From NCBI GenBank assembly GCA_937863385.1, contig CALMBW010000020.1, forward strand, positions 310,001 through 374,000: DNA of 64,000 nt, read 5' to 3'. Under the pieces are notes generated by a model. It searched no databases and was not told where the DNA came from. It was given only the letters and a program-made list of their open reading frames with translations. The position numbers and the translations under genes are program-made. The stretch is from an uncultured Actinomycetes bacterium (lineage in GTDB: Bacteria; Actinomycetota; CADDZG01; WHSQ01). Below, in pieces: positions 3,205 through 23,539 of this stretch (position 1 is its first letter; the number at the start of each line of letters is the position of its first letter).

Positions 3205-4125
3205 CTAGCGCCAGCTGGGGGCGATGGCCCTGGCGGTAGTGAGCTTCCAGCGCAAGGCTCCTCCTGGGAGCGACTCGCCATCGGCTCGGTAAACGGCAAG
3301 GTGGTTCGCAGACAGCACCACGTACTTGCCATCCGGAGACCAGTCAGGGAATCGGTCGAGCGAGTCCGAGCCGATGATCCTGGTTACGTCGCCCGATCCA
3401 ACGTCGACCACGTAAAGCTGCCAGACGTCCTCCCGACGGTTCGACGAGAACACGATCTTGTCGCCGTCGGGCGAGAACCGGGGGAACAGATCGTCCCCAC
3501 CACCCGTGGTCAGCTGGGTTGTGTCACCGCTTTCCAGATCCAAGACGTAAAGCTTGTAGAACCCGTCGTCGGCGCGATGGCTGAAGACGATCCGATCGGA
3601 ATCGGGGGCCCAATCTGGGTACACGCTCTCACCCTCCGACGGACCAACCTCTTCGGGCTCTCCGCCGTCAGCGGCCATCCGATACAGACGCCAGTTCGAG
3701 TTGTCGTCTCGCAACGATGCGAACACGATCTCGTTGCCGTCTGCAGACCAGGTTGGGTAGTCGTCGGTGGTATTCCCCTCGGTCAAACGGCGAGGCGAGC
3801 CGGTTTCGCTCGACACCCAAAGGTTCGAGAACCCGTTGGGGCGGGTGACAGAGAAGACGATCTCGTCGTCGGTTGGCGAGAACTGGGGCGAACCTGCATA
3901 GCCAGGAGGCGTGTTGACCTGGGTACGAGCATTGGTCTCGAGATCCTTGATGTAGATCGCGGACTCACCCACTGCCAAGTCCTGCACGTAGGCGATCTTG
4001 CCGGGAAGAGCGCCGGCTTCCGGCGTCTTCTCACGCAGGCTCACAGGACGTCGCTCGCCTGTTGGAGCGCACGATGCGAAGACGCTCACTGCCGCAACGG
4101 CGATGATGATCTTGCGGGCTTTCAC
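3205..4125 (-). CDS. PD40/TolB-like beta-propeller lipoprotein
   Basis: This 306-aa protein starts at a GTG that overlaps the stop of the GT2 gene as GTGA. It begins MKARKIIIAVAAVSVFASCAPTG, a lipoprotein signal with lipobox FASC. After the cysteine come at least five PD40-type repeats, recognisable by motifs such as SPQFSPTDDEIVFS, YPTWSADGNEIVFAS, YPDWAPDSDRIVFS and FPRFSPDGDKIVFSS, forming a beta-propeller outside the membrane. A reading from 4509 would add 128 residues of out-of-frame GT2 sequence and is rejected. Its place between polysaccharide enzymes suggests an extracytoplasmic accessory or scaffold role. No catalytic motif is seen. Confidence 0.8.
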   Translation of the reverse strand: MKARKIIIAVAAVSVFASCAPTGERRPVSLREKTPEAGALPGKIAYVQDLAVGESAIYIKDLETNARTQVNTPPGYAGSPQFSPTDDEIVFSVTRPNGFSNLWVSSETGSPRRLTEGNTTDDYPTWSADGNEIVFASLRDDNSNWRLYRMAADGGEPEEVGPSEGESVYPDWAPDSDRIVFSHRADDGFYKLYVLDLESGDTTQLTTGGGDDLFPRFSPDGDKIVFSSNRREDVWQLYVVDVGSGDVTRIIGSDSLDRFPDWSPDGKYVVLSANHLAVYRADGESLPGGALRWKLTTARAIAPSWR

Positions 4126-5111
4126 AGTGTCACCTCTCCCACGAGGGGCTGAACCATGCCCCGGTTGATCGTTTCTTCGGTTTGAGAATCGATGCGCTCG
4201 AAGCGCATCGCACAGATCTGCTCGGATACCAAGCCCAGGCCGAGGATCATCACTGCACTCATGCAGAGGAAGATCGCCAGCGACCACATCGAAGCCCCGA
4301 GGATGGAAGCAACGAAAGCGGTGAGAGCTCCTGCTGCGGGCATCGCTGCAACCGGCAGAAAGACCTTCAGGGGTGAGAACAGCGTCGAGATCTTGAAGAT
4401 GATGGTTAGGAACTTGACGCCATCTGAGAGCATCCTGATCTTGCTCTGCCCCACTCGCTTGTGCGCCTCGAAGGGTACGTACAGAACCGAGTAGCCGGAC
4501 CTGAGGCACGACATGGTCAATGTCGTCGGCGTCGAGAAGCCGTTAGGAAGCAACGGTAGGAACTCTTGGGCGATCGAACGGCGGATCACTCGCATGCCAG
4601 AAGTCAGGTCATCGATCTTGCGACCCGTCATGTAGGACGCAAGCTTGTTGTAGAAGGCATTGGCCATCCGGCGCAGCGAAGATGCTTGGGTCTTCGGATC
4701 GCGTGCGCCCACAACCATGTCGTAAGGGCCGGCGAAGTCGAGCAACTTCAGAAGATCGGATGCCTTGTGTTGGCCGTCGCCATCCATGATCGCAACGAAC
4801 TCGCCCGTCGCAGCCCTGATACCGGACTTGACCGCGGCTCCGTTGCCCGTGTTGTAGGGAGCGGACACCACACGGGCGCCTGCTTCTATCGCCTTGAGCA
4901 CTGTCCCGTCCGACGATCCGTCGTCAACCACAACGATGTCGGCGTTCTGGCCTAGGGTGTCACGCAGATCGGCGATCACTTCGGCGATCACCGCTGCCTC
5001 ATTGAAGGCGGGGATGACAACCGTGACGCTTGGGATCGTGCGGATGCGACTCGTGTTCGACACCGTGTTGGCCGCGTGAGGCAGCGGTGGAGCCACCAAC
5101 TGGATCGTCAC
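4122..5111 (-). CDS. Family 2 glycosyltransferase with C-terminal membrane anchor (Dpm1/GtrB-like)
   Basis: This 329-aa protein has a GT-A domain with DDGSSD at 63-68 and DGDGQ at 110-114, the nucleotide-sugar and metal-binding motifs. Two hydrophobic helices lie near residues 240-300. This architecture matches polyprenyl-phosphate glycosyltransferases such as dolichol-phosphate mannose synthase and GtrB. The GTG start overlaps the preceding stop as GTGA. A polyprenyl-phosphate sugar made here could serve as donor for the GT-C-like membrane proteins encoded upstream; that link is inference from context. Confidence 0.88.
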   Translation of the reverse strand: MTIQLVAPPLPHAANTVSNTSRIRTIPSVTVVIPAFNEAAVIAEVIADLRDTLGQNADIVVVDDGSSDGTVLKAIEAGARVVSAPYNTGNGAAVKSGIRAATGEFVAIMDGDGQHKASDLLKLLDFAGPYDMVVGARDPKTQASSLRRMANAFYNKLASYMTGRKIDDLTSGMRVIRRSIAQEFLPLLPNGFSTPTTLTMSCLRSGYSVLYVPFEAHKRVGQSKIRMLSDGVKFLTIIFKISTLFSPLKVFLPVAAMPAAGALTAFVASILGASMWSLAIFLCMSAVMILGLGLVSEQICAMRFERIDSQTEETINRGMVQPLVGEVTL

Positions 5112-7291
5112 GGCAGCTTCACCTCCTCGGGGCTTGTAGGTCCGGTGTTGAACAGCTCACCCGGACGCCACAGGTAGTCCTTGAACTCCGGTGTGTCCTC
5201 GGCGCCGTCTACGTCAGGTGTGCGACTGATCCGGTACACCTTGATCTCGTCGTCTTCGTAGTAGACGGACATGTCGGTGTGGTAGCGCATGTAGAGCTCG
5301 GACCATGTGTACATGCGGGTAAAGATGCGTCCGCGCTTCTCCCGGTTGAAGTAGTACTCCTCGGTCGGACCGTCGGGAGCCAGCTCGGGAACCGGGTACA
5401 CCTCTTTCTCGACGAAGATGAAGACGTCCTGCGTCGGGATGGCGAGGATGTCACCGACATCACGAGCTCCACGAGGGATGCCCTGACGTGCGTTCATCTG
5501 GTAGCCGGGGTCGCGGGCAGAACGCAGGGATGCGTCCCTGGCGAAGACCCAACCTTCGATGAACCAGCCGTCGCCGAGGATCTGCTGACGCTGCTGAGGA
5601 GTACCCACGATCGTGTAGGTGAACCGCTCGTAGTCATTGGCGATCTGGTCAGTGATACGAGCGGTCGATTCGTACAGGATGTTGACCCGCTGCCGGGCCC
5701 GGGCCGGATAGTTCTCCGCGAACGCAGCAAGAGCCACGAAGCCTGCGACGATCGCTATGGCCGTTCCCAGCAGGAACTGCTTACGGGGCAACAACACCGT
5801 CAGAGCACCAAGACCACACGCGAAAGCCAGAGTTAGCAGCGGACCCACGATCTGCGCGGAACGGTTCGCATAGAAGTCGTCGAGGCCCAAGAAGCGGACG
5901 TCGTAGAGGACCAAGATCGCTGCCGAGATCGCACACAGCGACAACATGAGCACCCCCTTGGAACGGGTGCTTCGTGCAAACAGCAGCACGATCCCGGCAA
6001 CCACACCGATGATCACGCAGATGATCGCCAGACGAGCTATGGGGTTGTAGCCAAGCTCTCCATAGACGAGGTTGGCCCCGTTAGTGGTCTCTTCGCCTTG
6101 CTGGGCGAACGGGTTCGTGTTGTTGATGGGGCCGAACAGGCCGATGCCGGCAAGTCGTGCAAGCGGGATGTAGATGAATGCTGCGATACCTGCGATCGCC
6201 GCAGTCAATGTCGCTCCGACGGCGAACTTGAATCCGCCGGACAGGATCGCTGCGGTGAATGCACCAACAGCGGTCAGACCGATGAAGAACGGCAGAGGCA
6301 CCGGGTGGGTCATACCTATCGCCACCGAAGCGCAGGCGATCGTGATCAAGTGACCCTTGTCCCGGTGAAGGACGGCCAGCGCACCGAACGGCAGGGCGAT
6401 CACACCGATCGCAAGAGCCAGCTCCTGAGGGAGAGGACCGATCTGGCGGTACCAGGGCTCGTGCCACTCGGGCCGGGTTCCGAGGAAGCCGAACAACCCC
6501 GCAGCGAAGATGGCTGCGCCTGGGTTACTCGTGAGCCGCAGCGCCGTGTAGAAGATGCCGTACACGATCAGAGTACCCACGATGGGGCCAAGGAAGCGTG
6601 CGACGTCCAACATGCTCGCCTGGAAGGCGAACTTCGAGGTGAACGCCATGACCGAGGGCATGCCATAGGGGTAGATGCCGTCCATGTAGATCTGGTTCGC
6701 CGTGAGACCCTTCGCCCACGTCATGTGGACGTATGCGTCAGGAGGTGAGAGAGCGAGCTCGTTGAGGTTGCCTTCCACCCGGAGCCAGAAGGACCAAGCG
6801 AGAACGAGGATGACCGGGACGACAAGGAGGAGCAGGGCGATCAACCGGGAACCGCGGCGCAACTTGGTCGAGCCGGCGTTGTCCTGCTCGGGGGTGGTGA
6901 CATCCACGGTCTGGACCGGCTCGCTGCGCTTCTGAGAGTTGCGACGCATACGGACCTCGCCGCGCTCGGCAGCGTCACCGACCGCCACCAGGCGAAGGGT
7001 GAAGTGGTTCCAGGTGGCGCGGACCTTGTCACGGTTCCACCCGTTGGGACGCATCTTGAAGTACCAGAAGGCGATCAGGCACAGCGCCGCGATCATCAGG
7101 GTCTCGTAGAGGCGGAACACCACGAGGATGTGAGTGGCAACGATCACGACGGCGATCCACCGGATGAAGTTCGCGGTCAGGTGGTCAAGGACCGTACGGG
7201 CGCCGCTTGGCTTGGGGAGGATTATCCACGGGAGCAGGACGAACCCAACTCCGAAAGCTACGACAACTGAGATTAGTCGGATGGTATTCAT
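5108..7291 (-). CDS. Large polytopic membrane protein, GT-C-like; paralogue of the gene at 9203-11347
   Basis: This 727-aa protein has two N-terminal hydrophobic helices, a charged cytoplasmic stretch (about 80-148), roughly ten more membrane segments (150-500) and a soluble C-terminal domain of about 200 residues. The first long loop has SPPDAYVHM with Asp185; a D-x-Y motif at that place recalls the loop aspartate of GT-C glycosyltransferases such as STT3. The paralogue shares GTRPEWHEPW, THPVPLPFF, VGTPQQRQ, LGDGWFIE, WVFARDASLR, DGPTEEYYF and MRYHTDM. I do not recognise a named family, so GT-C is a structural guess. It starts 11 nt after the pelG-like stop and overlaps the GT2 gene by 4 nt. 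Confidence 0.6.
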   Translation of the reverse strand: MNTIRLISVVVAFGVGFVLLPWIILPKPSGARTVLDHLTANFIRWIAVVIVATHILVVFRLYETLMIAALCLIAFWYFKMRPNGWNRDKVRATWNHFTLRLVAVGDAAERGEVRMRRNSQKRSEPVQTVDVTTPEQDNAGSTKLRRGSRLIALLLLVVPVILVLAWSFWLRVEGNLNELALSPPDAYVHMTWAKGLTANQIYMDGIYPYGMPSVMAFTSKFAFQASMLDVARFLGPIVGTLIVYGIFYTALRLTSNPGAAIFAAGLFGFLGTRPEWHEPWYRQIGPLPQELALAIGVIALPFGALAVLHRDKGHLITIACASVAIGMTHPVPLPFFIGLTAVGAFTAAILSGGFKFAVGATLTAAIAGIAAFIYIPLARLAGIGLFGPINNTNPFAQQGEETTNGANLVYGELGYNPIARLAIICVIIGVVAGIVLLFARSTRSKGVLMLSLCAISAAILVLYDVRFLGLDDFYANRSAQIVGPLLTLAFACGLGALTVLLPRKQFLLGTAIAIVAGFVALAAFAENYPARARQRVNILYESTARITDQIANDYERFTYTIVGTPQQRQQILGDGWFIEGWVFARDASLRSARDPGYQMNARQGIPRGARDVGDILAIPTQDVFIFVEKEVYPVPELAPDGPTEEYYFNREKRGRIFTRMYTWSELYMRYHTDMSVYYEDDEIKVYRISRTPDVDGAEDTPEFKDYLWRPGELFNTGPTSPEEVKLP

Positions 7292-7302
7292 TCGCCCGCC
7301 TC

Positions 7303-8913
7303 TTAGAAAGAAGAGTAGTAGTAGTAGTCGAGCTTGCTAACGACCCTGATGGCGAGCACGAGGCTGAGTAGTGCGAACACAACAGCACCCGAGAACAGCC
7401 CGAACACCGCCCACCAGTAGCTGAAGAACCTGCTGAGCAAGAAGCCGACGATGATGTCGACCAACAGGGCCGGACCGGCAGCCATGATCGCAAGCGATGG
7501 CCGGGAGACCCAGAAGAACAGCGAGACGTTCAGCAGAGAGAAGGCGATCAGTGCATAGGAGACCGCTGCCCACCAGAACACCGTGACGCTGATGTCGTTG
7601 AACATGATGGCGATCTCGGGCACGTATCGAACCGCGTACCGAACACCGAAGTAAGCGATGAGGACTCCGGCGATGGCCATTACGAGGAACGTCAGCGCAC
7701 GCATCGTGAAGAAGCGCATGAACCAGTCACGGAAGCTTGAGGTCTCCTTCAGGGAGTACTCGAGCTGCCGGGGCTTGGTGAACTGGCTGAACCGGTAGAT
7801 CGCGTACTCCAGAGCGGCGAAGGCCGGCAATAGTCCCAGCAGGGCCCAGTTCAGTCCGACCTCGTAGTCGGTGCGGAACCAGATGAAGGACTGACGGAAC
7901 GGCATGCGGCCCGTCCAAGCGATGATCCGGTCGGCGAAGAGGAGACCGAAGTAGAGGAAACCGAAGAGCAGGAACGGAGCGACCGAAGCCATGAGCATCG
8001 TCACCCGTGGCAGCTTGGTCGAGATGGGCGTCCTTGGGTCTTTGTTTCGCCGGTGATAGAAGACCAGCAGCACCAGAGCACAGACCAACGAGAAGGCGGC
8101 TGCGCTGAGGATGCCGACCTGGTGGGCGGCGATGATCGGCCAGTCGAACCACTCACGGAAGATGTAGACGACCCCGATACCGAGTGCGATAGCAACCGAG
8201 AACAAGAACTCACGCTGAAGCATGTAGAGCAGTGCCAGGCACAGCCACAGAGCCGAAAGCGTCAGGTAGTAGAGAACGGCAACGTTGCGGTCGAGCGGCG
8301 AGATCACCGGGAACACTGCGAAGAACACCCAGAGGATCGCCGCCACGATCAACGTAAGGACAACACCGAGGGCCAGGAAGAAGGCGCTCACCTTCAAACA
8401 GAGCAGGAACATCCCCTGACGCAAGTACATGAGTCCCCGGCGACCGATCGCCTGCGTGATCCCACCTGCGATGAAATAGCTAAGGGCGGTACCTACACCG
8501 ATCGCCGTCGCACGGGTCACGGTGAAGTAGTAGTAGGCCCACAGCGAGTAGAGCAGCAACAGGATGGCGATGATCATGATCGTCATCGGCAACCCGAACA
8601 CTGCTCCACGGATGAAGAAACGCGGGATGGCCCGAAGCAGCGAGTCGGGCTTGTGCTTGTCGTATTCCTCGGTCTGGCGCCGGCGCTCTTTGTCCCACGC
8701 CCTGGTGCGACTGGCGTCCTGCTCGCGCTGGCGCCGGACAACGTCCTCGGCTAGTGCGAACACATCGGGCTGCCCGTAGAACCGGCGGGCGTCCTCGTCG
8801 GATAGTCCCATGGCCTCGAGGTGGGCGGCGGCTTCGTAGGAGCTTTCGAGCCAGCCCGTGTTCTGGGAAAGCTCGTCGACGAGCTCGTCGACTGTGGGCA
8901 TCGTGAGAGGCAT
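7303..8913 (-). CDS. pelG: PelG-like membrane protein (MOP superfamily, Pel exopolysaccharide synthesis)
   Basis: This 536-aa protein has about 110 cytoplasmic N-terminal residues followed by about 12 hydrophobic segments. The hydrophobic pattern, the LRQGMFLL region after the first pair of helices, the late SLLNVSLFFWVSRPSLAI stretch and an ending in LDYYYYSSF resemble PelG, the membrane partner of the glycosyltransferase PelF. PelG of Pseudomonas is shorter (about 456 aa); the N-terminal extension accounts for the difference. I took the ATG at 8913, preceded by AAGGAG and GAAGG. An ATG at 8901 is possible, and the frame stays open to 8997. The pelF homologue lies in the same cluster, which supports the call. 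Assignment is by pattern only. Confidence 0.65.
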   Translation of the reverse strand: MPLTMPTVDELVDELSQNTGWLESSYEAAAHLEAMGLSDEDARRFYGQPDVFALAEDVVRRQREQDASRTRAWDKERRRQTEEYDKHKPDSLLRAIPRFFIRGAVFGLPMTIMIIAILLLLYSLWAYYYFTVTRATAIGVGTALSYFIAGGITQAIGRRGLMYLRQGMFLLCLKVSAFFLALGVVLTLIVAAILWVFFAVFPVISPLDRNVAVLYYLTLSALWLCLALLYMLQREFLFSVAIALGIGVVYIFREWFDWPIIAAHQVGILSAAAFSLVCALVLLVFYHRRNKDPRTPISTKLPRVTMLMASVAPFLLFGFLYFGLLFADRIIAWTGRMPFRQSFIWFRTDYEVGLNWALLGLLPAFAALEYAIYRFSQFTKPRQLEYSLKETSSFRDWFMRFFTMRALTFLVMAIAGVLIAYFGVRYAVRYVPEIAIMFNDISVTVFWWAAVSYALIAFSLLNVSLFFWVSRPSLAIMAAGPALLVDIIVGFLLSRFFSYWWAVFGLFSGAVVFALLSLVLAIRVVSKLDYYYYSSF

Positions 8914-9202
8914 CAGACCTTCGCTCCTTGTGCGGATTTCCGCTTCTTTCCAGTCATTTCCTGGAAGAAACTTACGGAAAGCGGCGATCCGCTCCATCGG
9001 GCGGCGGGACCAATGTGTTCGGCCCTCTAGGCGTGAGCCTCCCTCCCTCTTGGTCGTAGCCCGTTTCTGCCTCGACTACGTAGTCACCCTCCGAGCGGCG
9101 CCGCGGCCCCGTGATCGGGCACCGGCTCGCGCCCGGGCTGACCGAGGCAGGGGGACACAGATAGCTCGCGGGTCAGTGCAGGGCAGGAAGGGCTCGGTCG
9201 TC
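8914..9202. other. 289-nt non-coding gap inside the polysaccharide cluster
   Basis: This is the longest gap in the cluster. I see no convincing gene on either strand. It holds a perfect 12-bp palindrome GACTACGTAGTC at 9074-9085 and an AAGGAG site just ahead of the pelG-like start. It could contain a secondary promoter for the downstream half of the cluster. Confidence 0.4.
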
Positions 9203-11347
9203 TCAGCGGTGGATCCGCTTGAGCTGGGGCTTGGTGGGACCGAAGTTGAAGAGCTGCCCGGGGAGCCAGGTGTAGTCCTTGAACTCCGGAGTATCAAGAG
9301 CTCCGGCAAGGTCCGGGATCCGGTTGATCCGGTAGACCTTTATCTCTTCGTTCTCGAAGTAGACCTGCATGTCGGTGTGATAGCGCATGTAGGTCTCGGC
9401 CCACTGATACATGCGAGCCATGATCCGGCCCCGCTTGATCGGATCGAAGTAGTACTCCTCGGTCGGGCCGTCTGCAGCAAGGGTTGGCCCCTCGAAAGGC
9501 ACCTTCTCGACGAATACGAAAACGTCTTGGGTGGGGATGCTCAACAACGTGCCGGTGTCCTCGGAGCCTTGTGGGTCGCCCTCACGAGCCGGCATCTGGT
9601 AGCCCGGGTCGCGCGCCGCCCGCAGCGAGGCGTCCCGGGCAAAGACCCACGCTTCGATGAACCAGCCGTCGCCGAGCACCACCTGTCTCTGCTGGGGAGT
9701 TCCGATGACGGTGTAGGTGTAGCGCTCGTAGTCATGGGCGATGCTCTGCGTCACCTTGATGGTCGACTCGTAGGAGACCGTCTCATAGGTACCTGCCGAT
9801 GCCGGATACGTCCGGCCCAGCAACCCCAGTCCGAAAACGCCAGCGGCGATCAGCGCCAAGCCGGAAGACAACTTCGCTCTAGGGATCATCAATGTGATCG
9901 AGGCAAAGCCAAGGCCAAGAACGATGGCTAACGACGGACCCACAACCTGGGCCAACCTGTCGGCGTAATACGGGTCGAGCCGAAGGTCGGTGACGTCGTA
10001 AAGGAAAACGATGACACCAGCGATCGCGCAAAGACCCAACAGTTTCCCGGCGCGTCGTCGGCCCTCGTGCGTCATCAACAACAGGACGGCTCCTATCAGG
10101 CCCAGTAACAGACCGGGGATGGCGAACCTCGCCACACCATGGAAACCGGCAGCGCCTACAGACAGAGGCACGGCAGCAACTCCCCCACCGGGATCTGCAA
10201 GGGGAGTGAGGTTGCGGATCGGCTCGAACAACTCGAGGCCTGCCAACTTGCCCAGAGGGAGGTAGGCCATGCCGGCAAGAGACGAGGCGATAGCGATGCC
10301 CGACACCAAGCCGGCTTCCTTGAAACCCCCTAGCAACAAGGCGCTGCCGAAAGCCCCCACCACGACGAGCAGGACAAAGAAAGGCAGGGGCACGGGATGA
10401 GTAAGGCCGATCGCGACGCAGGCTGCTGCGATCGTCCATAGATGGTCTCTTTCACGATCGACAACGCACATCACCGCCGACGGCAATGCCAACAAAGCGA
10501 TGGCCAGCCCAAGCTCCTGTGGAAGGGCCCCTGTCTGGCGGAACCAGGGTTCGTGCCACTCAGGTCGGGTGCCGAGCAACCCGAAAGCTCCAGCAGCGAA
10601 GGTTGCAGCACCGAAGTTGTCCGACAGGCGATAGACGACGTAGAAGATCCCGTAGACGATCAGCGACCCGATCAACGGGCCCATGAACCTCGTGACGTCC
10701 AGCATCGAAGCGAATCCATTCATCTTGCTGGTGAACGCGAGAATGGACGGGATCCCGTGCGGGTAGATCCCATCTACGTAGAGGTTGTTGTTGAGCAACT
10801 CTTTGGCCCAGGCCATGTAGTGATAGGTATCGGGGGGGCTCAGCGAGAGATGGCCCATCGCATAGCGAGCCCGCAACCAGAACGAAACTCCCAACACCAC
10901 AACCGGCACGACCGCCAAAGAGGCGATCCTTAGTTTCGAACGAGCAGGAACACCCGCGGGGGGCGGAGGCACAAGTCGCAGCCGGGGGATGGATGGGCCC
11001 ACGACGCGCCCGATGCGGTACTTGAGCTCGGTGCGATCGATGAGATCCAGAAGCCCAAGCAGCCGCACCCAAATCCATTCCTTCATCCGGTTCAGGGTCC
11101 ATCCGGCAGGTTTGGCCTTGGAGTAGTAGAAGCCGACGATGCAGAAGAAGATGACCGCGGCGAGCTCGAAGATGCCGAGGAGCGTCATCAGGTGGACGCC
11201 GACGATCACGAGACCCATCCAGCGAACCATGTTGATGGTCACGACATCGAGGACCGAGCGCGCTCCTTTGGGTCTGGGTAGCACGAAGTAGGGAACGATG
11301 ATGAACGCTGCCCCGAATGCCATGAGGACCATCAGCATCCGGAACAC
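9203..11347 (-). CDS. Large polytopic membrane protein, GT-C-like; paralogue of the gene at 5108-7291
   Basis: This 714-aa protein has the same plan as its paralogue: two N-terminal helices, a charged cytoplasmic loop, about ten further membrane segments and a soluble C-terminal domain. The loop motif here is LSPPDTYHYMAWAK with Asp173. Similarity spans the whole length but is patchy at the N-terminus, so the duplication is old. The start is a GTG at 11347 with a GGGAAG stretch upstream. It lies 90 nt after the pelF-type gene and 289 nt before the pelG-like gene. Substrate and activity are unknown; polymerisation or transfer of lipid-linked sugar is the working guess. Confidence 0.6.
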   Translation of the reverse strand: MFRMLMVLMAFGAAFIIVPYFVLPRPKGARSVLDVVTINMVRWMGLVIVGVHLMTLLGIFELAAVIFFCIVGFYYSKAKPAGWTLNRMKEWIWVRLLGLLDLIDRTELKYRIGRVVGPSIPRLRLVPPPPAGVPARSKLRIASLAVVPVVVLGVSFWLRARYAMGHLSLSPPDTYHYMAWAKELLNNNLYVDGIYPHGIPSILAFTSKMNGFASMLDVTRFMGPLIGSLIVYGIFYVVYRLSDNFGAATFAAGAFGLLGTRPEWHEPWFRQTGALPQELGLAIALLALPSAVMCVVDRERDHLWTIAAACVAIGLTHPVPLPFFVLLVVVGAFGSALLLGGFKEAGLVSGIAIASSLAGMAYLPLGKLAGLELFEPIRNLTPLADPGGGVAAVPLSVGAAGFHGVARFAIPGLLLGLIGAVLLLMTHEGRRRAGKLLGLCAIAGVIVFLYDVTDLRLDPYYADRLAQVVGPSLAIVLGLGFASITLMIPRAKLSSGLALIAAGVFGLGLLGRTYPASAGTYETVSYESTIKVTQSIAHDYERYTYTVIGTPQQRQVVLGDGWFIEAWVFARDASLRAARDPGYQMPAREGDPQGSEDTGTLLSIPTQDVFVFVEKVPFEGPTLAADGPTEEYYFDPIKRGRIMARMYQWAETYMRYHTDMQVYFENEEIKVYRINRIPDLAGALDTPEFKDYTWLPGQLFNFGPTKPQLKRIHR

Positions 11348-11437
11348 GTTCGTCTTCTTCCCTTGATCCTTCTCTCGAGCGCGAACGCTCTACTCGGTCA
11401 ACGTCCGGTTCTTCGAAGCTTGTGGAGCAGTGCGGAC

Positions 11438-13585
11438 CTAGGCGGTGTCGGACCGTCCGAACAGACCCGTGAGCGCTGTGGCGGCGGCGGCTCGGACCCT
11501 CGAATCGGGGTCGGAGCGCAACACGTCTGACAGCAGGCGGGTCGCCTCTGCGGGAGGCACGGCGGCACCGATCGAGGACACAGCCTGGAGCCTGACCTCG
11601 GCGCTCGGGTGCCTCAGCAGTGAGCGGGGGTCCTGGCCCACCGACGGACCGGTGACCGATGGTCCGCTCGTGACCGGAGCTGCCCCCGCAGGGACCGCTT
11701 CGATCGACGAGGGCTGAACGGTCGATTCCGGAGCCGTGATGGCCGGGCTGTGCGGTTCGGCTGACGCCACTACCGGTGCGATCTGCGGTGCCGGCTGGTG
11801 CACGGGGGTCCCGGCAGACGGCGCCTGCTGGACGACACCGGAGACCGGCATCATTCCACCGACGGCAACCGGTACCTGACCCTCGGCTCCCACAGCTTGA
11901 GCTGCCGGCTGTTGGGTCGCCGCCCGGCGCTGTGCATCCCGGGCCTGATCTGCGAGTCGACGGTAGGTGATCCGGTAACCCTCGATCGCGGCCTGGATGG
12001 TGAATCTGTTCAGCGCACGGTCACGGCATGCGGTCTCCAGCTCGGCCTTTGCCGCGGGATCCAAACGAAGCAGACGCAGCACACCATCGGCCATGCCTTC
12101 GACGTCACGAACCCTTGCGAGCAGACCGACATCTTCCACGGCTTCCGACACACCACCCACGTTGGTGGCGACAACCGGCTTCCCACACATCATCGACTCG
12201 ATGACGGTGTAGGGGAAAGCCTCCGAGATCGACGTCAACAAGGTGATATCACCCATGTTGAAGGCCTCGGCTGGGTTGTCGGTCGATCCCATGAACTTGA
12301 CAGTGCCCTCGAGGTTGAGCTCCTTGTGGAGCTTCTTGAGCTTCTCGTCATACTCCTCGTCACTGACCGGGCCGAAGTGCAAGAACTGCACGTTGGGGAT
12401 GTGCTTACGCACGAGGTTCGCCACGTGCAGCATCGTCTCGAGGTCCTTCAGCGGGTCGATACGTGACACCGACACGACCGTCGGTGCACTCGAACGTGCA
12501 ACCCTGCGAGGGCTGTAGGCGACCGGGTCGACCCCGTTGTAGATGACGCGGATCTTGTCCACTGCAGCACCGTTCAAGATCTCCCACCGGGTGTTGTAGC
12601 GGCACACCGGCGAGATCTGGTCTGCGAAGTGCAGGCATGTGCGGGCAACTGCAACGATCATCTGCATGAGGAACTTCTTGAGGTGATACGGGAACCCGTA
12701 GCGGCCGAGAGCGAGGTACTGCTCACGCATGTAGACACCGTGCTCGGTAAGTACGAACGGAGTGCCGCGCTCCATCTTTGCCAGGATGCCGGGGATGCCA
12801 CAGAATGCCGCGGCCGAACTGTGAACGACATCACCATCAGGAACCGGGAAGTCGAGCGGTGTCATCAACCGATACAGCCAACGCATCCCCTCGGTTGCGT
12901 CTGACAAGGTCGGCAGGTACTCGCCTTCGCCGTTGGAGGGATCGGCCGGACGAGGCGGGTGGAAGAGTTGACGGATCGAAGAGCGAACCTCTGAACGCGT
13001 GACCTTGTCACCGGCCGCTATGTACTCCTCGTGCACCTGGTCTTCGGCGACCGAACCACCGGAAGCCTCGAGCAGGAAACGCTTGAAGGTCTCCCATGCA
13101 GCAGCACTTCGGAAGGTCTGACGGAAGTCATTGCGCTTGAAGTAAAGGTGGATCTCGTACAAGAGCTGGCCGAAACGTCCGGGGTCGAAGTCTGCCGATG
13201 CGATCTCACGAAGCAGCTGCTCGAACAACGGGATGAACTTGTCACGCACGTCGCTCTCACTGGTGCGGCGGGACAGTGACATGACTCGGGCAGCCGGCAT
13301 GTCGATCGTGTATTCGGCCGGCTCTTCGACACCCCAGAGGGGGACGCCGGAGAAGTGACCCACGTTGTCCGGCAGGTCGTACTGAGCGTCGACGAAGGGG
13401 TTCATCATCAGCGCCCACACCGTGAAGTCAACCTCGGGCATGCCGCGCAGCAGGGTCTCGCACCAAGTCGACACACCGCCGCGGAAGTGCGGATACGTGC
13501 CCTCGGTGGTCAACACCACTTTGAGGTCGGATGTCTCCGCCTTCGGCTCGGATCGGGTGATAAGTGCGAAACCGCTATCTGCCAT
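11438..13585 (-). CDS. pelF: PelF-type GT4 glycosyltransferase with C-terminal HEAT-like extension
   Basis: This 715-aa cytoplasmic enzyme has the PelF N-terminal signature TEGTYP at 27-32 and GGVSTW at 36-41. A GT4 C-terminal domain starts at about 365 (VVSVSRIDPLKDLE) and includes the E-x7-E donor motif (Glu455 and Glu463). Classical PelF is about 500 aa and polymerises UDP-activated amino sugars for Pel polysaccharide. Here about 200 residues are added: a Pro/Ala/Val-rich linker (about 550-650) and a final HEAT-like segment (SLLRHPSAEVRLQAVSSIG, then SDPDSRVRAAAATAL). The ATG at 13585 has GGAGAG 9 nt upstream. The stop of the HEAT-repeat gene is 17 nt upstream, so co-transcription is likely. 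The tail may dock to that protein. Confidence 0.88.
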   Translation of the reverse strand: MADSGFALITRSEPKAETSDLKVVLTTEGTYPHFRGGVSTWCETLLRGMPEVDFTVWALMMNPFVDAQYDLPDNVGHFSGVPLWGVEEPAEYTIDMPAARVMSLSRRTSESDVRDKFIPLFEQLLREIASADFDPGRFGQLLYEIHLYFKRNDFRQTFRSAAAWETFKRFLLEASGGSVAEDQVHEEYIAAGDKVTRSEVRSSIRQLFHPPRPADPSNGEGEYLPTLSDATEGMRWLYRLMTPLDFPVPDGDVVHSSAAAFCGIPGILAKMERGTPFVLTEHGVYMREQYLALGRYGFPYHLKKFLMQMIVAVARTCLHFADQISPVCRYNTRWEILNGAAVDKIRVIYNGVDPVAYSPRRVARSSAPTVVSVSRIDPLKDLETMLHVANLVRKHIPNVQFLHFGPVSDEEYDEKLKKLHKELNLEGTVKFMGSTDNPAEAFNMGDITLLTSISEAFPYTVIESMMCGKPVVATNVGGVSEAVEDVGLLARVRDVEGMADGVLRLLRLDPAAKAELETACRDRALNRFTIQAAIEGYRITYRRLADQARDAQRRAATQQPAAQAVGAEGQVPVAVGGMMPVSGVVQQAPSAGTPVHQPAPQIAPVVASAEPHSPAITAPESTVQPSSIEAVPAGAAPVTSGPSVTGPSVGQDPRSLLRHPSAEVRLQAVSSIGAAVPPAEATRLLSDVLRSDPDSRVRAAAATALTGLFGRSDTA

Positions 13586-13602
13586 GTTGGTTCACTCTCC
13601 AG

Positions 13603-16467
13603 TTATTCGTCGGAGTCCTCGTCCTCACTCGGAGGACCCGTCAAACGCCTAAGTGCCGGTTCGATCGCTGCTACGACATCCATGTCCGGATCTGCGATGA
13701 AAGCTCGCTTCAGTGGCTCGATCGCCCGGGGGTCACCGAGCTCGCCGAGCACCTTGGCGGTCGTGGTGCGAACCTCTGCGTCGGGGTCGTCCAAGCGTGA
13801 GACCAAGGCATCGACCGCCTCGATCGCACCCATGGCCCCGATGCCCTCGACTGCACGCAACCGCTTCGCCGGACTGCGATCGTTCAGATCGCTCATCAAG
13901 CGTCCGACGGCGTCGGAGGCCACCAGGATCTCGCCGATCGCACGGCGCATCTCGGGAGTTGCTCCCTTTAGCGCCGTCAGCAACCGGTCGGTCGCCACCT
14001 CGCCGAGCTGCACCAGGAGATCGGCAGCAGCCCTGCGGTGGGTCGGGAACTTGAGCGCCCGCAGCAACAGCTCGACAACCGAGCCAGAGCTGTGACCGAG
14101 GAGCGCAGCGCGGGCTGCGTCACGCACCTCCTTGGAGGGGTCACGGGCACCGTCGAGCAGATAGGGAAGAACACGGTCGTCTTCGATGGCCTGCAAGACC
14201 TTGAGTGCCATCGAACGAACCTTGGTCTCGGGATCCCGCAAACGCTGTCCAACGGCATCGACAGCAGTGGGGTCCGGGGTGTCGAGGAGATTCGCAAGAG
14301 CTTCCGTACGGACCTCAGGCGCAGGATCGTCGAGAGAGGCCAGCATGCGGTCGGCGCTTCGACCCTCGAGGCGAGCGATCACGCGCAGGCCGAGCACCCG
14401 GTCGGTAGCCAAGGAAGACTCCAGAGCTTGCCGCCCGAGAAGTGTGACTGCTCCACGATCGAAGTCCTTCAGGACACCCAGGATCAGATCCTGAACATCG
14501 CGCGAGACTCCTCGCAGCGAGGACCACAAGACGGCGAGTGCTTCAGGGGCCGGGATCGCACCGAGATAGGCAACGGCTTGTGCGGCTACATCGGTGTTGT
14601 GGTCGTGAAGCGCCCGAGCAAGAAGCGAGACATCTTCCTCGGTGCCACCGGTGAGCAATCCAACCGCTGCAACTCGAACGTTGTCGTCTTCACTCTGAAG
14701 AGCTGTGTCGGCTGCGCGGAGGCGGACCGAAGTCTCTGCATCGGTGAAGGAATAAACCGAAGCCACTCGAGCCTTACCCGAGGAGTCGGTCGACAACAAA
14801 GTCATGAGTTGATCGGCGACCTGACCGGTTGGGGCAGTCCCACACGCTTCGATCGCCGCAAGGCGAACATTGGCGTTCGGATCGCTAAGGCCCTTGATCA
14901 GGGGCTCGGTGTTGGAACCATCGATGAGCCCGACGAGCGTGAGAGCGTCCAGACGCCGGGAAGGCTCGGGGTCTTCTTGCATCTCAGCGATCGCCTGCCA
15001 CGTTCGGGTGAAGGTCTTGAGCGACTCAGCGATGCGCGTCCGCTCGTCATGCGTCGGCGCGGCCAAGACGGCACCGATGATGTCGGGGACGAGTTCCTGC
15101 ATGTCGAGGCGAGCAGCGATGCCGGCGTTTCGCGCCTTCGTCGCAGCGTCGTCACCAGCGATGCCGGCACGCAACCACTTGGCAAGACGGTCGCCCTCCA
15201 TGGCCTTGAGGGCTTCTTCGGAGTGCGAACGGACTTCGGGCTGGGGATCGTCAAGGGCAGCGATCAGGGCCGAGAAGACCACGTCTTCAACCGGCTGATC
15301 TGAGGTCGATGGCGCGTAAGACATCGATCCAGCGGGAGCCGGGTCGTAAGCGTGGGCCGGCGCAACTGGAGCCACTTCGGCAACGCTATCCGCGACCGGA
15401 ACGACCTCAGCGGCTGGAGCCTCTTCGACGATCGGTGCAGCAACTTCGCTGGGGGCCGGGGCGAGGGCTCCCTCGTACTGTCCTGCTTGCAGCCTGGACA
15501 ATGCTCCGGTGGCGAGGTTCCTGATCTTGGCGTCCGCGTCAGAGACACCCTTTGCGAGCACCTCATACGAACGCTGCGACCCACTTTCGAGTGCCAAGGT
15601 TGCAGCGCCGAGACGAACCTCTGCGTTGCCCGAGCGCAGGCGGGAAAGGAGATCCTCCTCCGGCAGCACGCGAGCGATGAGGCCGAGTTCCCGGCGGAAA
15701 CGAGCCTTGAGGGTAGGCGCGAGGTTGGCCACGATCGCGACAACCCTGTCGATCGTGTGCGCTTCGAAGGGCCGCTGCACCGTCTGCAAAAGATGCGCAA
15801 GACCGGTTAGCCCTGCACCAACGACCGCTTCGTCCGATTCGGTTGCGAGTCGCTCGTAGAGGGTCTCGATGACCGACGAGTTCTGTGTGCGTCCAAGAAG
15901 AGCCATCGCTCGGGCTCGGATACCCGGATCCCAGTCAAGCGTGGCGGCTTCGACCGGGCCCAGGGGCGCGAGCTGAGGTGCACGTTCGAGCACCTGGAGT
16001 GAAAGAGCTCGCAGATCCTGTTCGGGGTCTTGCAATGCGATCGCCGCGGCGCTGACAAGGGGGCCGGTTAGTTCTCGCTGAAGGAGCTCGCGAAGCGCCG
16101 CCCGGCGCTGCGCTACATCTCCACCTGCGAGTGAGCGAGCGACTTCGTCATCGGCAGGGCCCGCATAAGTCTCTTGCATCGGAGCTGCTGCACCGGGTGC
16201 ATCGGTAGCTTCGTCACCGAAATGTTGGGCGACCTGCTGGTCGATACCCGGCGTGCCTTCTGCTACGGAAGCGGTCAGATCGATCTCGCCGGCAGCAGCA
16301 TCCTCTCCAAGGGCATCGGATCGCGTCACTGGAGGGGGAGCTTCTTCCGCATGCTGGATCGGCTCGTATGGCGCAGGCTCCTCGAAGGACTCCTGCTGGT
16401 TGTAGTCGTCCACCTGCCCGAGAAGAGCCTCGAGCAGCCCCACTTCTTTCTCCTTACGAGGTTTCAT
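13603..16467 (-). CDS. 954-aa HEAT-repeat scaffold protein
   Basis: This protein has no signal peptide or membrane helix and is predicted cytoplasmic. After a low-complexity acidic N-terminus (about 1-110) come two blocks of HEAT/PBS-lyase-type helical repeats, at about 112-340 and 400-945, joined by an Ala/Pro/Glu linker. Repeat cores include DPAPEVRTEALANLL, DPETKVRSMALKVLQ, DPSKEVRDAARAALL and DPDAEVRTTTAKVLGEL. The tail is acidic (SEDEDSDE). The ATG has GAGG 7 nt upstream. The next gene encodes PelF with its own HEAT-like tail. HEAT arrays usually mediate protein-protein binding, so an assembly scaffold for the synthase is the best inference. No enzymatic motif is visible. Confidence 0.8.
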   Translation of the reverse strand: MKPRKEKEVGLLEALLGQVDDYNQQESFEEPAPYEPIQHAEEAPPPVTRSDALGEDAAAGEIDLTASVAEGTPGIDQQVAQHFGDEATDAPGAAAPMQETYAGPADDEVARSLAGGDVAQRRAALRELLQRELTGPLVSAAAIALQDPEQDLRALSLQVLERAPQLAPLGPVEAATLDWDPGIRARAMALLGRTQNSSVIETLYERLATESDEAVVGAGLTGLAHLLQTVQRPFEAHTIDRVVAIVANLAPTLKARFRRELGLIARVLPEEDLLSRLRSGNAEVRLGAATLALESGSQRSYEVLAKGVSDADAKIRNLATGALSRLQAGQYEGALAPAPSEVAAPIVEEAPAAEVVPVADSVAEVAPVAPAHAYDPAPAGSMSYAPSTSDQPVEDVVFSALIAALDDPQPEVRSHSEEALKAMEGDRLAKWLRAGIAGDDAATKARNAGIAARLDMQELVPDIIGAVLAAPTHDERTRIAESLKTFTRTWQAIAEMQEDPEPSRRLDALTLVGLIDGSNTEPLIKGLSDPNANVRLAAIEACGTAPTGQVADQLMTLLSTDSSGKARVASVYSFTDAETSVRLRAADTALQSEDDNVRVAAVGLLTGGTEEDVSLLARALHDHNTDVAAQAVAYLGAIPAPEALAVLWSSLRGVSRDVQDLILGVLKDFDRGAVTLLGRQALESSLATDRVLGLRVIARLEGRSADRMLASLDDPAPEVRTEALANLLDTPDPTAVDAVGQRLRDPETKVRSMALKVLQAIEDDRVLPYLLDGARDPSKEVRDAARAALLGHSSGSVVELLLRALKFPTHRRAAADLLVQLGEVATDRLLTALKGATPEMRRAIGEILVASDAVGRLMSDLNDRSPAKRLRAVEGIGAMGAIEAVDALVSRLDDPDAEVRTTTAKVLGELGDPRAIEPLKRAFIADPDMDVVAAIEPALRRLTGPPSEDEDSDE

Positions 16468-16510
16468 GGCCTTACCTCACACTCCGTCCGCAGGGGAAGT
16501 TGCGTTGCAC

Positions 16511-16861
16511 TCAGCGGCGAGCGAGGGCCTCGAGGATCACGGCGCGAACCCGGTCTCCCGGTACGCCCTTCAAGATCGAGACACCCACTTGCTGCGTAGC
16601 GTGTTGCTGTGGACGATCGATCAACCTCACCAGAAGGGTCGATGAATCGGCGTCCACCAAGTCGTAGATCGAGGCCACATCCAGGCCTCCAGTTGCTGCA
16701 TCCACCAGCAAGACGTCCGGTTTGAACTCCCGGGCCAGGCGCACCGCTTCGAACCCGTCCGCAGCTTCCGCTACGACCGTCCAGCCCCATTCCCCTACCA
16801 AGCGCGCCAGCGCCGAACGGGCCGAGGCCCGAGGATCGGCCACGACGACCTGTAGGTTCAA
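16511..16861 (-). CDS. Receiver-only (CheY-like) protein, atypical active site
   Basis: This 116-aa single-domain protein has the receiver fold pattern. The phospho-acceptor candidate is Asp54 in LLVDAAT and the conserved lysine is Lys98 in SILKG. Only one acidic residue (Asp9 in VADPRA) is present where receivers normally have two, and the usual MP pair after the acceptor is missing. It may be weakly phosphorylated or a pseudo-receiver. The start is a TTG set by a strong ribosome site at 16868-16874. It lies 43 nt before the HEAT-repeat gene, so it probably belongs to that transcript. Confidence 0.7.
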   Translation of the reverse strand: MNLQVVVADPRASARSALARLVGEWGWTVVAEAADGFEAVRLAREFKPDVLLVDAATGGLDVASIYDLVDADSSTLLVRLIDRPQQHATQQVGVSILKGVPGDRVRAVILEALARR

Positions 16862-16867
16862 GAACTG

Positions 16868-16874
16868 CTCCTTT
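16868..16874 (-). promoter_or_regulatory. Ribosome binding site AAAGGAG fixing a TTG start
   Basis: Read on the minus strand, AAAGGAG lies 6 nt before the TTG at 16861. No ATG or GTG with a comparable site is nearby, so this decides the start of the receiver-only gene. Confidence 0.7.
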
Positions 16875-17016
16875 GCTGGTCATTTCTGGAAGATTGTGGT
16901 CCGGCAGCGCTCTTCAATCCATCCTGCAAAGCATGGAAAGGAGCAAGGCCGAGAGTCTTAGTCACCAGCGCTATGGAATGTAGTCCGCTCTAGAGCGGGA
17001 CGGTAGTCACTCGGAG

Positions 17017-17664
17017 CTAGCCCGGGAGCTTGACCAAGCGTTCTCGTATCGCCTTGGAGGCAGCCTGGGTCCGGTTCGTGACCCGGAGTTTCCTAAAGAT
17101 CGACGAGAGGTGGCTCTTGACCGTCTTCTCAGAAAGGAACAATGCGGACGCGATCTCGTCGTTGGTCGAGCCTTTGGCGAGAAGCTGCAGGACCTCCAGC
17201 TCGCGCTCGGAAAGTCCTTGACCGTCTTTCTCTTCGCCGCGGCCACGCGCTAGAACACGTTGCGCAACGGCAGGGTGAAGGTAGACACCTTTGCCCGTGA
17301 GAGCGGTTTCGATCGCTTCTGCGAGCTGTTGGCTGGACGCTTCCTTGAGGAGATAACCGGCCGCACCCGCGGCGAGCGATTGATCCACGTACTCCTCAGT
17401 GTCGTAGGTAGACAGCATCAGAACGGGAAGCTCAGAGTAGGACTCGCGGATCTTGTGAAGGGTCCAGATCCCATCGTGCTCGGGCATCCGGGCGTCCAGC
17501 AAGACGACATCGACGCTCTCGCTGCCAAGCACCGAGAGCGCCTCAGGGCCAGAAGAGGCCTCCACGACGCGCATCTTCAGCAAGGTCTCGAGCAGGAGGC
17601 GGATACCTTCCCGGACCACGCTGTGGTCGTCAACAAGCAGAACGGTCTTACGTTCAGTGTCCAT
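17017..17664 (-). CDS. NarL/LuxR-family response regulator
   Basis: This 215-aa regulator has a receiver domain with Asp12-Asp13, phospho-acceptor Asp57 (LLDARMP), a threonine in MLSTYD and a lysine in LLKEAS. A C-terminal LuxR-type helix-turn-helix follows from about 145 (LSERELEVLQLLAKG, then LSEKTVKSHLSSIFRKL). A TTG at 17697 would add 11 residues; I prefer the ATG at 17664, which begins right at the receiver. It lies 130 nt downstream of the histidine kinase, its likely partner, and upstream of the polysaccharide genes, which are probable targets. The 155-nt gap after it (16862-17016) may hold a promoter for the downstream operon. Confidence 0.92.
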   Translation of the reverse strand: MDTERKTVLLVDDHSVVREGIRLLLETLLKMRVVEASSGPEALSVLGSESVDVVLLDARMPEHDGIWTLHKIRESYSELPVLMLSTYDTEEYVDQSLAAGAAGYLLKEASSQQLAEAIETALTGKGVYLHPAVAQRVLARGRGEEKDGQGLSERELEVLQLLAKGSTNDEIASALFLSEKTVKSHLSSIFRKLRVTNRTQAASKAIRERLVKLPG

Positions 17665-17794
17665 GTTCCACCATCTTCTTCTATGACGCCCCGGCAAACC
17701 TGTACATACGGATAATCGGTAGGACTATCGTCTCAGGAGATCCGTCGGTAACCCCGCTTTTCCCATGGTCCGCTTGGCCCACCTGCCAGCAACA

Positions 17795-19273
17795 CTAAGC
17801 GACAACCTCTAACAGCATGCGCGTTCCTTCACCGGGAGTGGACTGGATATCCAACTTGCCTCCTGCAAGGCGCACCCGGGAACGGATTATCTGGAGGCCC
17901 TGGTGCAACCTGAAACCTTCGTCGGCTTGACCGGCCGGATCGAATCCCTTGCCTTCGTCTTCGACGGTGACGACGATGCTGTCCTCTTGGAAGGTCAAAG
18001 AGATCGTGGCCACATCGGTGCCGGCATGCTTGCGGATGTTCCCGACCCCCTCCTGGACCAGAGCAAAAACCAAGGCAAGGATGTCGGGATCAACGTCCCT
18101 GGGCGTTCCTTTCACGTCGTAGGTCAGTTCCAAACCCCATTGAGCCCCGAAGTCACCGATGAATCGCTCGAGTCCACCCGCGAGATCGGTCCACTCCGGT
18201 GCGTTAGGGGTCAACTCGAGGATCGCCCCACGCAGGGAGTCCAGTGCCTCAAGCACTGCGGTTCGCATCGCACGAACCATCTTGCGTGCGGCCTCTGGAT
18301 CCTCCATGACCTGATCGAGGACCTCCATCTGGATCGCGACATTGGTGAGCACTTGAGTGATGCCTTCATGGATCACTCCCGCGATACGAGCACGCTCGGT
18401 CAGCATCGCATTGTTGCGCGCCGCCGTTGTGTCCCGTCCCCGGCCCGCACTCGCTTCATATAAAGACGCTGCTGCGTCGGCCGACTCCATACCTTCGACG
18501 GCATCCCCGATCGCGACCGTGGTCCCCCATTGACCCCTCCCGAAGACCCAGCGGCGGTTGGTGGAAAGACCCAAGAGCTTGGCGATCGTATTCATCTGCT
18601 CGGAGGTGGGCGGATCGAGCTTCAAGGTTCCGGCATTGCGAAGGCGTGTAGACCCCGTAGACCAGTCGGCCCCGTTTCGATCTGCCCAGGCTGCATCGAG
18701 GTGGTCACGCTCCGGCCGCAACGCTACGAGTGTCACGCCCACGCCAAGACTGCCCAACGCAGCCAGAGCTGCGCCTTCATCGATCTCACCTTCCGCCAGC
18801 TTGCGGAGAACGGGGAGCCAACCGCCGAGGGCACGAAGCTCTCCAACCCTGGCCACGGAGTCATAGGTGCCCCTGATAGAGGCCCCCATCTTCGCCAGTG
18901 TTGGGGCTAGGTCGCTCTCGAGTAGCTCTGCGGCGGCGTCGGGGGCAGGGTTCTCGAAGAAGACAACCACGGGGCGCTCCGCAGAAGGGCACACCAATAC
19001 GAAAAGGCGCTCGACGCCTCCGGTGCCTAAGCGAAGCCCGGCGTGGCCGAGTTCGGGGGTCTCATAGAGATAGGGACCGTCTCCGGATGCCATCGCCTCG
19101 GCGAGGTGGATCAACAGGTCGTCCTTGTGCGAGGCCTCGCGCTGGTGAGTGACCCATCCCCTGCCGGTATCGAGGGCTATCAGCCACCGTTCTGCCCGCA
19201 GATACCCCGCGAGGACTTCGATGGCATCGCCAATGGGGTCGGCGGGACGGCTGATCCCCTCGTCCTGATCCAT
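17795..19273 (-). CDS. Soluble NarL-type sensor histidine kinase
   Basis: This 492-aa protein has no predicted membrane segment. The N-terminal 280 residues look like one or two GAF-like sensory regions (for example LRAERWLIALD). The dimerisation/phospho-acceptor helix (HisKA_3 type) is TERARIAGVIHEGITQVL with His302. The HATPase domain follows, with the N-box QEGVGNIRKHA and the G-boxes DEGKGFD and GLQIIRSRVRLAGGKL. It should phosphorylate the adjacent NarL-type regulator. A GTG at 19276 is possible; I chose the ATG at 19273, 7 nt after GGAGG. The absence of membrane helices suggests an intracellular signal. Confidence 0.9.
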   Translation of the reverse strand: MDQDEGISRPADPIGDAIEVLAGYLRAERWLIALDTGRGWVTHQREASHKDDLLIHLAEAMASGDGPYLYETPELGHAGLRLGTGGVERLFVLVCPSAERPVVVFFENPAPDAAAELLESDLAPTLAKMGASIRGTYDSVARVGELRALGGWLPVLRKLAEGEIDEGAALAALGSLGVGVTLVALRPERDHLDAAWADRNGADWSTGSTRLRNAGTLKLDPPTSEQMNTIAKLLGLSTNRRWVFGRGQWGTTVAIGDAVEGMESADAAASLYEASAGRGRDTTAARNNAMLTERARIAGVIHEGITQVLTNVAIQMEVLDQVMEDPEAARKMVRAMRTAVLEALDSLRGAILELTPNAPEWTDLAGGLERFIGDFGAQWGLELTYDVKGTPRDVDPDILALVFALVQEGVGNIRKHAGTDVATISLTFQEDSIVVTVEDEGKGFDPAGQADEGFRLHQGLQIIRSRVRLAGGKLDIQSTPGEGTRMLLEVVA

Positions 19274-19455
19274 CACAAGTCCTCCCGCTGCGGGCCCCTA
19301 GCGTCATTACTCTAGTACGAGGCATCTCGCCCGGACCGGAACCCGCCGGCTGCACGGCCTTCCGAAAGCCTCCGTCCACAATGTCATGCACGAGCGTACA
19401 TATATGGGAGGAATCCTCGCATAAGCCGCCAAGTCTTCAAGGTCGGCCCCAGCAC

Positions 19456-19461
19456 AGGAGG
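19456..19461 (+). promoter_or_regulatory. Ribosome binding site AGGAGG fixing a TTG start
   Basis: AGGAGG lies 6 nt before the TTG at 19468, immediately ahead of a clear signal peptide. This outweighs the in-frame ATG at 19381, whose extra 29 residues look unlike a secretion signal. Confidence 0.75.
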
Positions 19462-19467
19462 CATCTC

Positions 19468-23397: not shown

Positions 23398-23539
23398 CCC
23401 AAAAGGCAGATCCTGGAACTAGTCCTTCCAGCTATCCCCAAAATGACCCGCGGCTCAGGGGGTGTCGTCTAAATGTGGACATCGGGGCTGCCGAAGCGCT
23501 GGGGGTAAGCACTTGTTCCCCTCGCGCCAAGGAGTACCC

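Follow-up and report, generated by a model that had tools for sequence, protein, structure and literature searches.

A divergent Pel-type locus with non-classical partner genes in two classes of Actinomycetota

INTRODUCTION

What kind of system is formed by a PelF/PelG pair whose neighbours are not those of a classical pel operon? The question is raised by a gene cluster in a 64,000-nucleotide stretch of DNA from an uncultured Actinomycetes bacterium (the window, G000:C20:310001-374000, whose position 1 is C20:310001; the genome, G000, is 2.77 Mb). Pel is a polymer of alpha-1,4 GalN/GalNAc, and in the known Pel systems PelF and PelG are believed to require PelD and PelE for their activation and to be held in place. 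The original prediction, made from this DNA alone, was that PelF and PelG here share a cluster with an unusual set of partners and could represent a separate synthase family. We compared the locus with a survey set of 397 Actinomycetota genomes, in which the class of G000 is a small one, represented by 24 genomes.

The first part of that proposal, that a PelF/PelG core recurs with a set of non-classical partners, was borne out. The second was not: what two classes of Actinomycetota carry here is a Pel-type system, divergent and with new partners, rather than a new synthase class, because Gram-positive Pel loci (PMC7112168, PMC7112194) and operons with PelF and PelG only (PMC7112194) have already been published. 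The synthase assignment is well supported by the sequence affiliations of PelF and PelG. The wider reading that we favour, at about even confidence, is of a Pel-type synthase in which HEAT-repeat and receiver proteins replace PelD and PelE and which is coupled to an extracytoplasmic glycosylation module of the three-component type; HEAT/receiver control and side-chain decoration are put forward as hypotheses.

RESULTS AND DISCUSSION

The PelF and PelG core

The gene at 11438–13585 (minus strand) encodes a GT4 protein with a DUF3492 domain and a C-terminal HEAT tail, which by profile matching belongs to the PelF family. It scores 151.6 bits against the NCBIfam equivalog model for PelF, NF038011 (cut-off 100), and 146.5 bits against the Pfam DUF3492 model (PF11997), in agreement with the original prediction of a PelF-type GT4; a HEAT_2 match is also present. 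R375, K380 and the glutamates of the EX7E motif (E455/E463) are invariant across 10 PelFs, those of canonical operons included. The HEAT tail, at about residues 650–710, was seen among the compared PelFs only in the clade of the window, L004 (a contig of genome G014), L048 and L049, and a literature search found no paper on a PelF with HEAT repeats. A second, orphan PelF with a HEAT-like tail is encoded in G179 (L049:1557-3605), with no adjoining PelG.

The predicted polymer exporter is encoded at 7303–8913 (minus strand), within a reading frame that is open to 8997; relatives begin at the Met encoded at 8913. The proposal that it is a PelG did not pass the Pfam check, since PF16933, whilst covering most of the length, gives 20.6 bits against a gathering cut-off of 29. 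It was upheld, however, by an end-to-end match (E 1e-30) to the PelG of L050 (genome G356), a locus where PelG occurs with PelF, an Agd3/CE18-type deacetylase and a GH114-like protein, the GH114 call being made by reading the sequence. Direct hhalign comparison with two canonical PelGs gave almost nothing and was not significant, and L050 was therefore used as a bridge. With actinobacterial PelGs adjoining PelF, hhalign gave 99.5% and E 8.5e-23, and the N-terminal helical domain is common to actinobacterial PelGs.

A search with a profile of the window protein plus two relatives recovered full-length homologues from G007, G014 and G179, a diverged full-length one from G356, and no others; in further genomes it matched only the 55 N-terminal residues of PelGs encoded next to PelF. 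Searched against PDB sequences, the PelG profile returned nothing useful, and structure prediction from an alignment of three rows gave a predicted local distance difference test score (pLDDT) of 44.4. The PelF and PelG trees agree: the window, L004 and L048 group within an actinobacterial clade, and the canonical operons of G033 and G383 fall away from the window clade in both. From the full-length L050 match, the actinobacterial hhalign result and the matching trees, and despite the sub-cut-off profile score, we take 7303–8913 to be a PelG by descent, divergent in sequence.

It is on this placement that the idea of a separate synthase family founders, as PelF and PelG both lie inside a wider actinobacterial clade, the other loci of which have a PelA-type deacetylase and/or GH114. 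The loci L050, L051, L052 and L055 share with the window the PelF/PelG clade and the PelG N-terminal domain. They differ in carrying an Agd3/CE18-type deacetylase and/or GH114 and a PelF without the HEAT tail, and neither a HEAT protein nor a polytopic protein was found with them.

Polytopic proteins linked to the PelG clade

Two large polytopic membrane proteins, A (9203–11347) and B (5108–7291), both on the minus strand and 51% identical to each other, are candidate GT-C glycosyltransferases. A has no Pfam match and B a sub-threshold one to PF10131 (19.2 bits). Polytopic profiles matched exactly those 4 of the 397 genomes that have a full-length PelG of the window type, namely G000, G007, G014 and G179, which span three genera and two classes; a broader profile recovered the same four and one noise match of 19.8 bits. 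In all four, a polytopic gene lies directly after PelG. By counting alone the probability of this coincidence is ∼1e-9, but three of the four genomes belong to one family, and the co-occurrence therefore represents two independent lineages. The PelG clade and the polytopic proteins thus show a conserved linkage, of the kind that the original prediction proposed to look for.

This linkage bears on a rival explanation that sees in the locus no more than a divergent Gram-positive Pel system of the ordinary kind. The HEAT, two-component and polytopic genes would then adjoin it by chance or be loosely related to it, and the product would be plain poly-GalNAc, partially deacetylated and processed by the unlinked PelA-type enzymes. 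The confinement of the polytopic family to the genomes of the PelG clade, its fixed place after PelG and the restriction of the PelF HEAT tail to the window clade all argue against it. On the other side stand the PelFG-only operons already reported (PMC7112194), the unlinked PelA_DA and GH114 homologues in the genome, the separation of the polytopic module from PelFG in G007 and G179, and the G179 PelF that lacks a HEAT neighbour. On balance we consider this explanation rather unlikely.

Seven polytopic homologues share invariant residues at D185, R282-Q283, LPQE 287-290 and H329-P330 (B numbering). From the topology, the invariant loop aspartate and the sub-threshold PF10131 match we infer that these proteins are GT-C glycosyltransferases.

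The downstream module

All genes named in the original prediction were found, each on the minus strand and true to its description, and the cluster as a whole runs on that strand from the kinase (17795–19276) to the flippase (396–1820). The genes from polytopic B to the flippase overlap or are at most 29 bp apart; from PelG through the GT2 to the propeller lipoprotein, successive genes are joined by overlaps or gaps of no more than 11 bp, followed by 29 bp before the dehydrogenase. Such close packing points to a single transcription unit, most plainly for PelG and the genes after it. Past the window start the cluster continues to ∼C20:304761 with genes for an HprK-like protein, a GT4 and an epimerase-GT2 fusion.

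The GT2 (4122–5111, minus strand) has a hydrophobic C-terminal region. Its best PDB matches are ArnC, dolichol-phosphate mannose synthase and GtrB sll0501, and its top NCBIfam matches AglJ/PpgS, so that it resembles a polyprenyl-phosphate sugar synthase and is predicted to act as one. The three PDB matches are enzymes that synthesise polyprenyl-phosphate sugars, which serve GT-C enzymes as donors. The TolB-like propeller lipoprotein (3205–4125, minus strand) has a PD40 match of 1.9e-27, a VFASC lipobox and a GTG start overlapping the GT2 gene; homologues adjoin polytopic genes in L004, L074 and L075 and, by position, in L073. The nucleotide-sugar dehydrogenase (TIGR03026, 404.7 bits, and Pfam) was rightly counted as a cluster member in the original prediction but wrongly placed within 3205–19273, as its gene sits at 1817–3175 (minus strand). 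The Wzx/MOP-type flippase (minus strand; Polysacc_synt 9.6e-32) was given a start at an internal Met, in a reading frame open to 1943.

G007 has a second polytopic gene, after which come those for a GT2 (63% identical to that of the window), propeller protein, dehydrogenase, flippase, HprK-like protein and GT4, which is the window order and its continuation; the propeller, dehydrogenase, flippase and GT4 were assigned there from position and length. In G179 a separate contig carries GT2, propeller, polytopic, GT4 and dehydrogenase genes. The block thus stands apart from PelFG in both genomes, and the genes from polytopic B to the flippase are a separable module; the suggestion that the polytopic, GT2, propeller and dehydrogenase genes form one system with PelFG did not hold to that extent. 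A gene for a DUF3473 polysaccharide deacetylase (L073:7347-8225) lies between the two glycan blocks of G007, and none was found in the window cluster.

Such separability might indicate two unrelated glycan systems that happen to adjoin, a regulated PelFG unit from the kinase to PelG and a lipid- or protein-glycosylation module from polytopic B to the epimerase-GT2 fusion. The two halves in G007 are indeed distinct blocks, each with polytopic, propeller and flippase genes of its own, and in G179 the second block is on another contig. In G000, however, the halves form a single, interleaved cluster in which PelG has polytopic A ahead of it and polytopic B immediately behind, and each half retains a polytopic gene in the relatives, for which reasons we think two unrelated systems very unlikely.

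The gene content also invites comparison with a surface glycan of the Wzx/Wzy type, in which the polytopic proteins would polymerise or ligate lipid-linked repeat units exported by Wzx, whilst PelF would act only as one glycosyltransferase and PelG only as a second flippase. A Wzx-type flippase, an additional GT4 and GT2, an HprK-like kinase and a sugar dehydrogenase do occur in one cluster, in a module separable from PelFG. Yet the genes scanned included neither a recognisable initiating phosphoglycosyltransferase nor a Wzz, the GT2 is of the polyprenyl-monophosphate type, and PelF is a DUF3492 synthase with its conserved residues intact and in the same operon as PelG. This explanation therefore appears improbable to us.

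Signalling genes and the HEAT-repeat protein

The first gene of the cluster (17795–19276) encodes a sensor histidine kinase (HisKA_3 4.8e-10, HATPase_c 1.1e-10), which is probably cytoplasmic to judge from a single weak hydropathy peak; a homologue occupies the equivalent position in G007. It is followed on the minus strand by a response regulator of the NarL/LuxR type (17017–17697; Response_reg 4.2e-28, GerE 3.5e-23; homologue at L060:4622-5344) and by a divergent stand-alone receiver with a TTG start (16511–16861), whose Response_reg score of 25.3 bits is under the 30.2 cut-off. The receiver frame was preferred to an overlapping one at 16464–16883, which was dropped. A receiver homologue lies between the response regulator and HEAT genes in G007, and the protein is a candidate control subunit.

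The HEAT-repeat protein (13603–16467, minus strand; 954 amino acids) has eight HEAT_2 stretches (9.3e-56) and no transmembrane segment, is a putative scaffold in the cytoplasm, and is 44% identical to its G007 counterpart. The expected co-occurrence with pelF holds within the family, together with the two-component genes: the HEAT gene is directly upstream of PelF in G007 and in G014, where the C-terminus is seen in L004, and G007 retains the complete run of kinase, response regulator, receiver, HEAT and PelF genes in that order. It does not extend to the second class, as in G179 no HEAT protein is encoded beside PelF and an exonuclease-like gene is found upstream instead.

A canonical actinobacterial pel operon encodes a PelE-like protein (L057:8399-9331) that combines HEAT and tetratricopeptide (TPR) repeats, which makes it plausible that the HEAT protein is a functional substitute for PelE. 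Both are helical-repeat proteins with HEAT repeats, encoded beside PelF; the window protein differs in being soluble, much longer and without TPR repeats, and the likeness recognised is that of the repeat class.

PelA, PelD and PelE

No PelA_DA deacetylase and no PelD were recognised among the cluster genes scanned, and no TPR protein that could be PelE was found among them. PelB and PelC are not expected in a Gram-positive organism. The statement in the original prediction that no PelA was recognised is thus correct for the locus but does not extend to the genome, where an unlinked PelA_DA homologue (C7:87705; 44% identity with its counterpart in a canonical pel operon) and a GH114 homologue (C27:41555; 295.6 bits) are present. 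The PelA_DA profile misses the deacetylase of the Streptomyces-like pel locus in G352, which is homologous by direct comparison.

Comparison with known systems and proposed mechanism

In Bacillus cereus, PelD, PelE, PelF and PelG are held to form a biosynthetic complex in which PelE is a protein–protein interaction hub and PelF is activated upon binding of cyclic di-GMP (c-di-GMP) by PelD (PMC13254593). The locus resembles pelDEA(DA)FG of B. cereus ATCC 10987 (PMC7112168, PMC13254593) in having a DUF3492/GT4 PelF with the EX7E motif, a PelG-type exporter in the same operon, and PelA_DA and GH114 homologues in the genome. It differs in that these two homologues are unlinked and PelD, PelE and PelA_DA are not recognised at the locus, in the HEAT tail of PelF and the extra N-terminal domain of PelG, and in the addition of the HEAT protein, two-component genes and polytopic proteins. 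The downstream module in turn recalls three-component side-chain addition, established as the joint work of a polyprenyl-phosphate sugar synthase, a MATE flippase and a GT-C enzyme (GtrAB-Gtr; MATE flippase with GT136; PMC11127046). A GT2, a MOP/MATE-family protein that is a predicted flippase by its Polysacc_synt match, and a large polytopic protein share the operon here too, although the window polytopic proteins are only candidate GT-C enzymes and are coupled to a PelFG core.

In the mechanism that we favour, PelF would act in the cytoplasm and polymerise a UDP-sugar into an amino-sugar chain, both activity and sugar being predictions, and the divergent PelG would export the chain during synthesis. 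PelD, the c-di-GMP receptor, and the PelE hub would give way to a soluble HEAT scaffold, which would engage PelF by its HEAT tail, and to a phospho-signal sent by the kinase, the response regulator and the receiver-only protein. The GT2 may load a sugar onto polyprenyl phosphate, the MOP flippase may turn the product over, and the polytopic GT-C-like proteins may transfer the sugar to the exported chain outside the membrane, with the propeller lipoprotein as a putative accessory on the outer face. Processing of the polymer by the unlinked PelA-type homologues, a deacetylase and a hydrolase, would still be possible. Tentatively, one can envisage a branched Pel in which phospho-relay control, through the receiver-only protein and a HEAT scaffold docked onto the HEAT-tailed PelF, has supplanted c-di-GMP control through PelD/PelE, and side chains are added from polyprenyl-phosphate sugars by paired, previously undescribed GT-C enzymes.

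Several observations weigh against this mechanism. The match of PelG to canonical PelG profiles is weak, and in G179 PelF has no HEAT gene beside it, so that the core can evidently do without the HEAT protein. The PelD profile PF16963 matched in no genome, those with pel operons included, and its silence in G000 therefore carries no weight. A PelA_DA homologue was undetected in G007, G014 and G179, though by the profile that also misses the G352 deacetylase. As to GT-C identity, PF10131 matches one of the seven polytopic members, under its cut-off, a PDB sequence search with polytopic profiles found no relative and no solved GT-C, and the predicted model of polytopic B (pLDDT 35.5, three-row alignment) is too poor to use. 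If the mechanism is true, PelF and PelG have been kept whilst their surroundings were swapped, which would reveal the minimal parts of the machine and how a synthase can exchange c-di-GMP for a different controlling signal. Synthase-dependent polymers would moreover be tied to the extracytoplasmic addition of side chains, a process usually studied with O antigens and cell-wall polymers.

Neighbouring genes

Beyond the end of the glycan cluster lie genes for a regulator, NAD synthase and glutamine synthetase. Near that end, on the opposite strand, an HD-GYP-type gene (L002:14866-16155, plus strand; L073:17778-19913, minus strand) keeps its position in G000 and G007 and is possibly a c-di-GMP phosphodiesterase. 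A 459-residue ‘unknown’ reading frame in the downstream part of the cluster (L002:14812-16191) was rejected as the antisense of this gene.

On the other side, an S8 subtilase gene (window 19381–21081) is divergent from the kinase gene, with ∼100 bp between them, and window 23462–28222 encodes a protein of 1586 amino acids in which a domain scan recognised an NHL propeller and bacterial Ig-like repeats. Beside the unlinked GH114 gene, two adjacent genes (L079:8629-10653 and 11462-13336) encode near-identical YD/RHS-like repeat proteins that differ in their C-termini, as in polymorphic toxin arrays.

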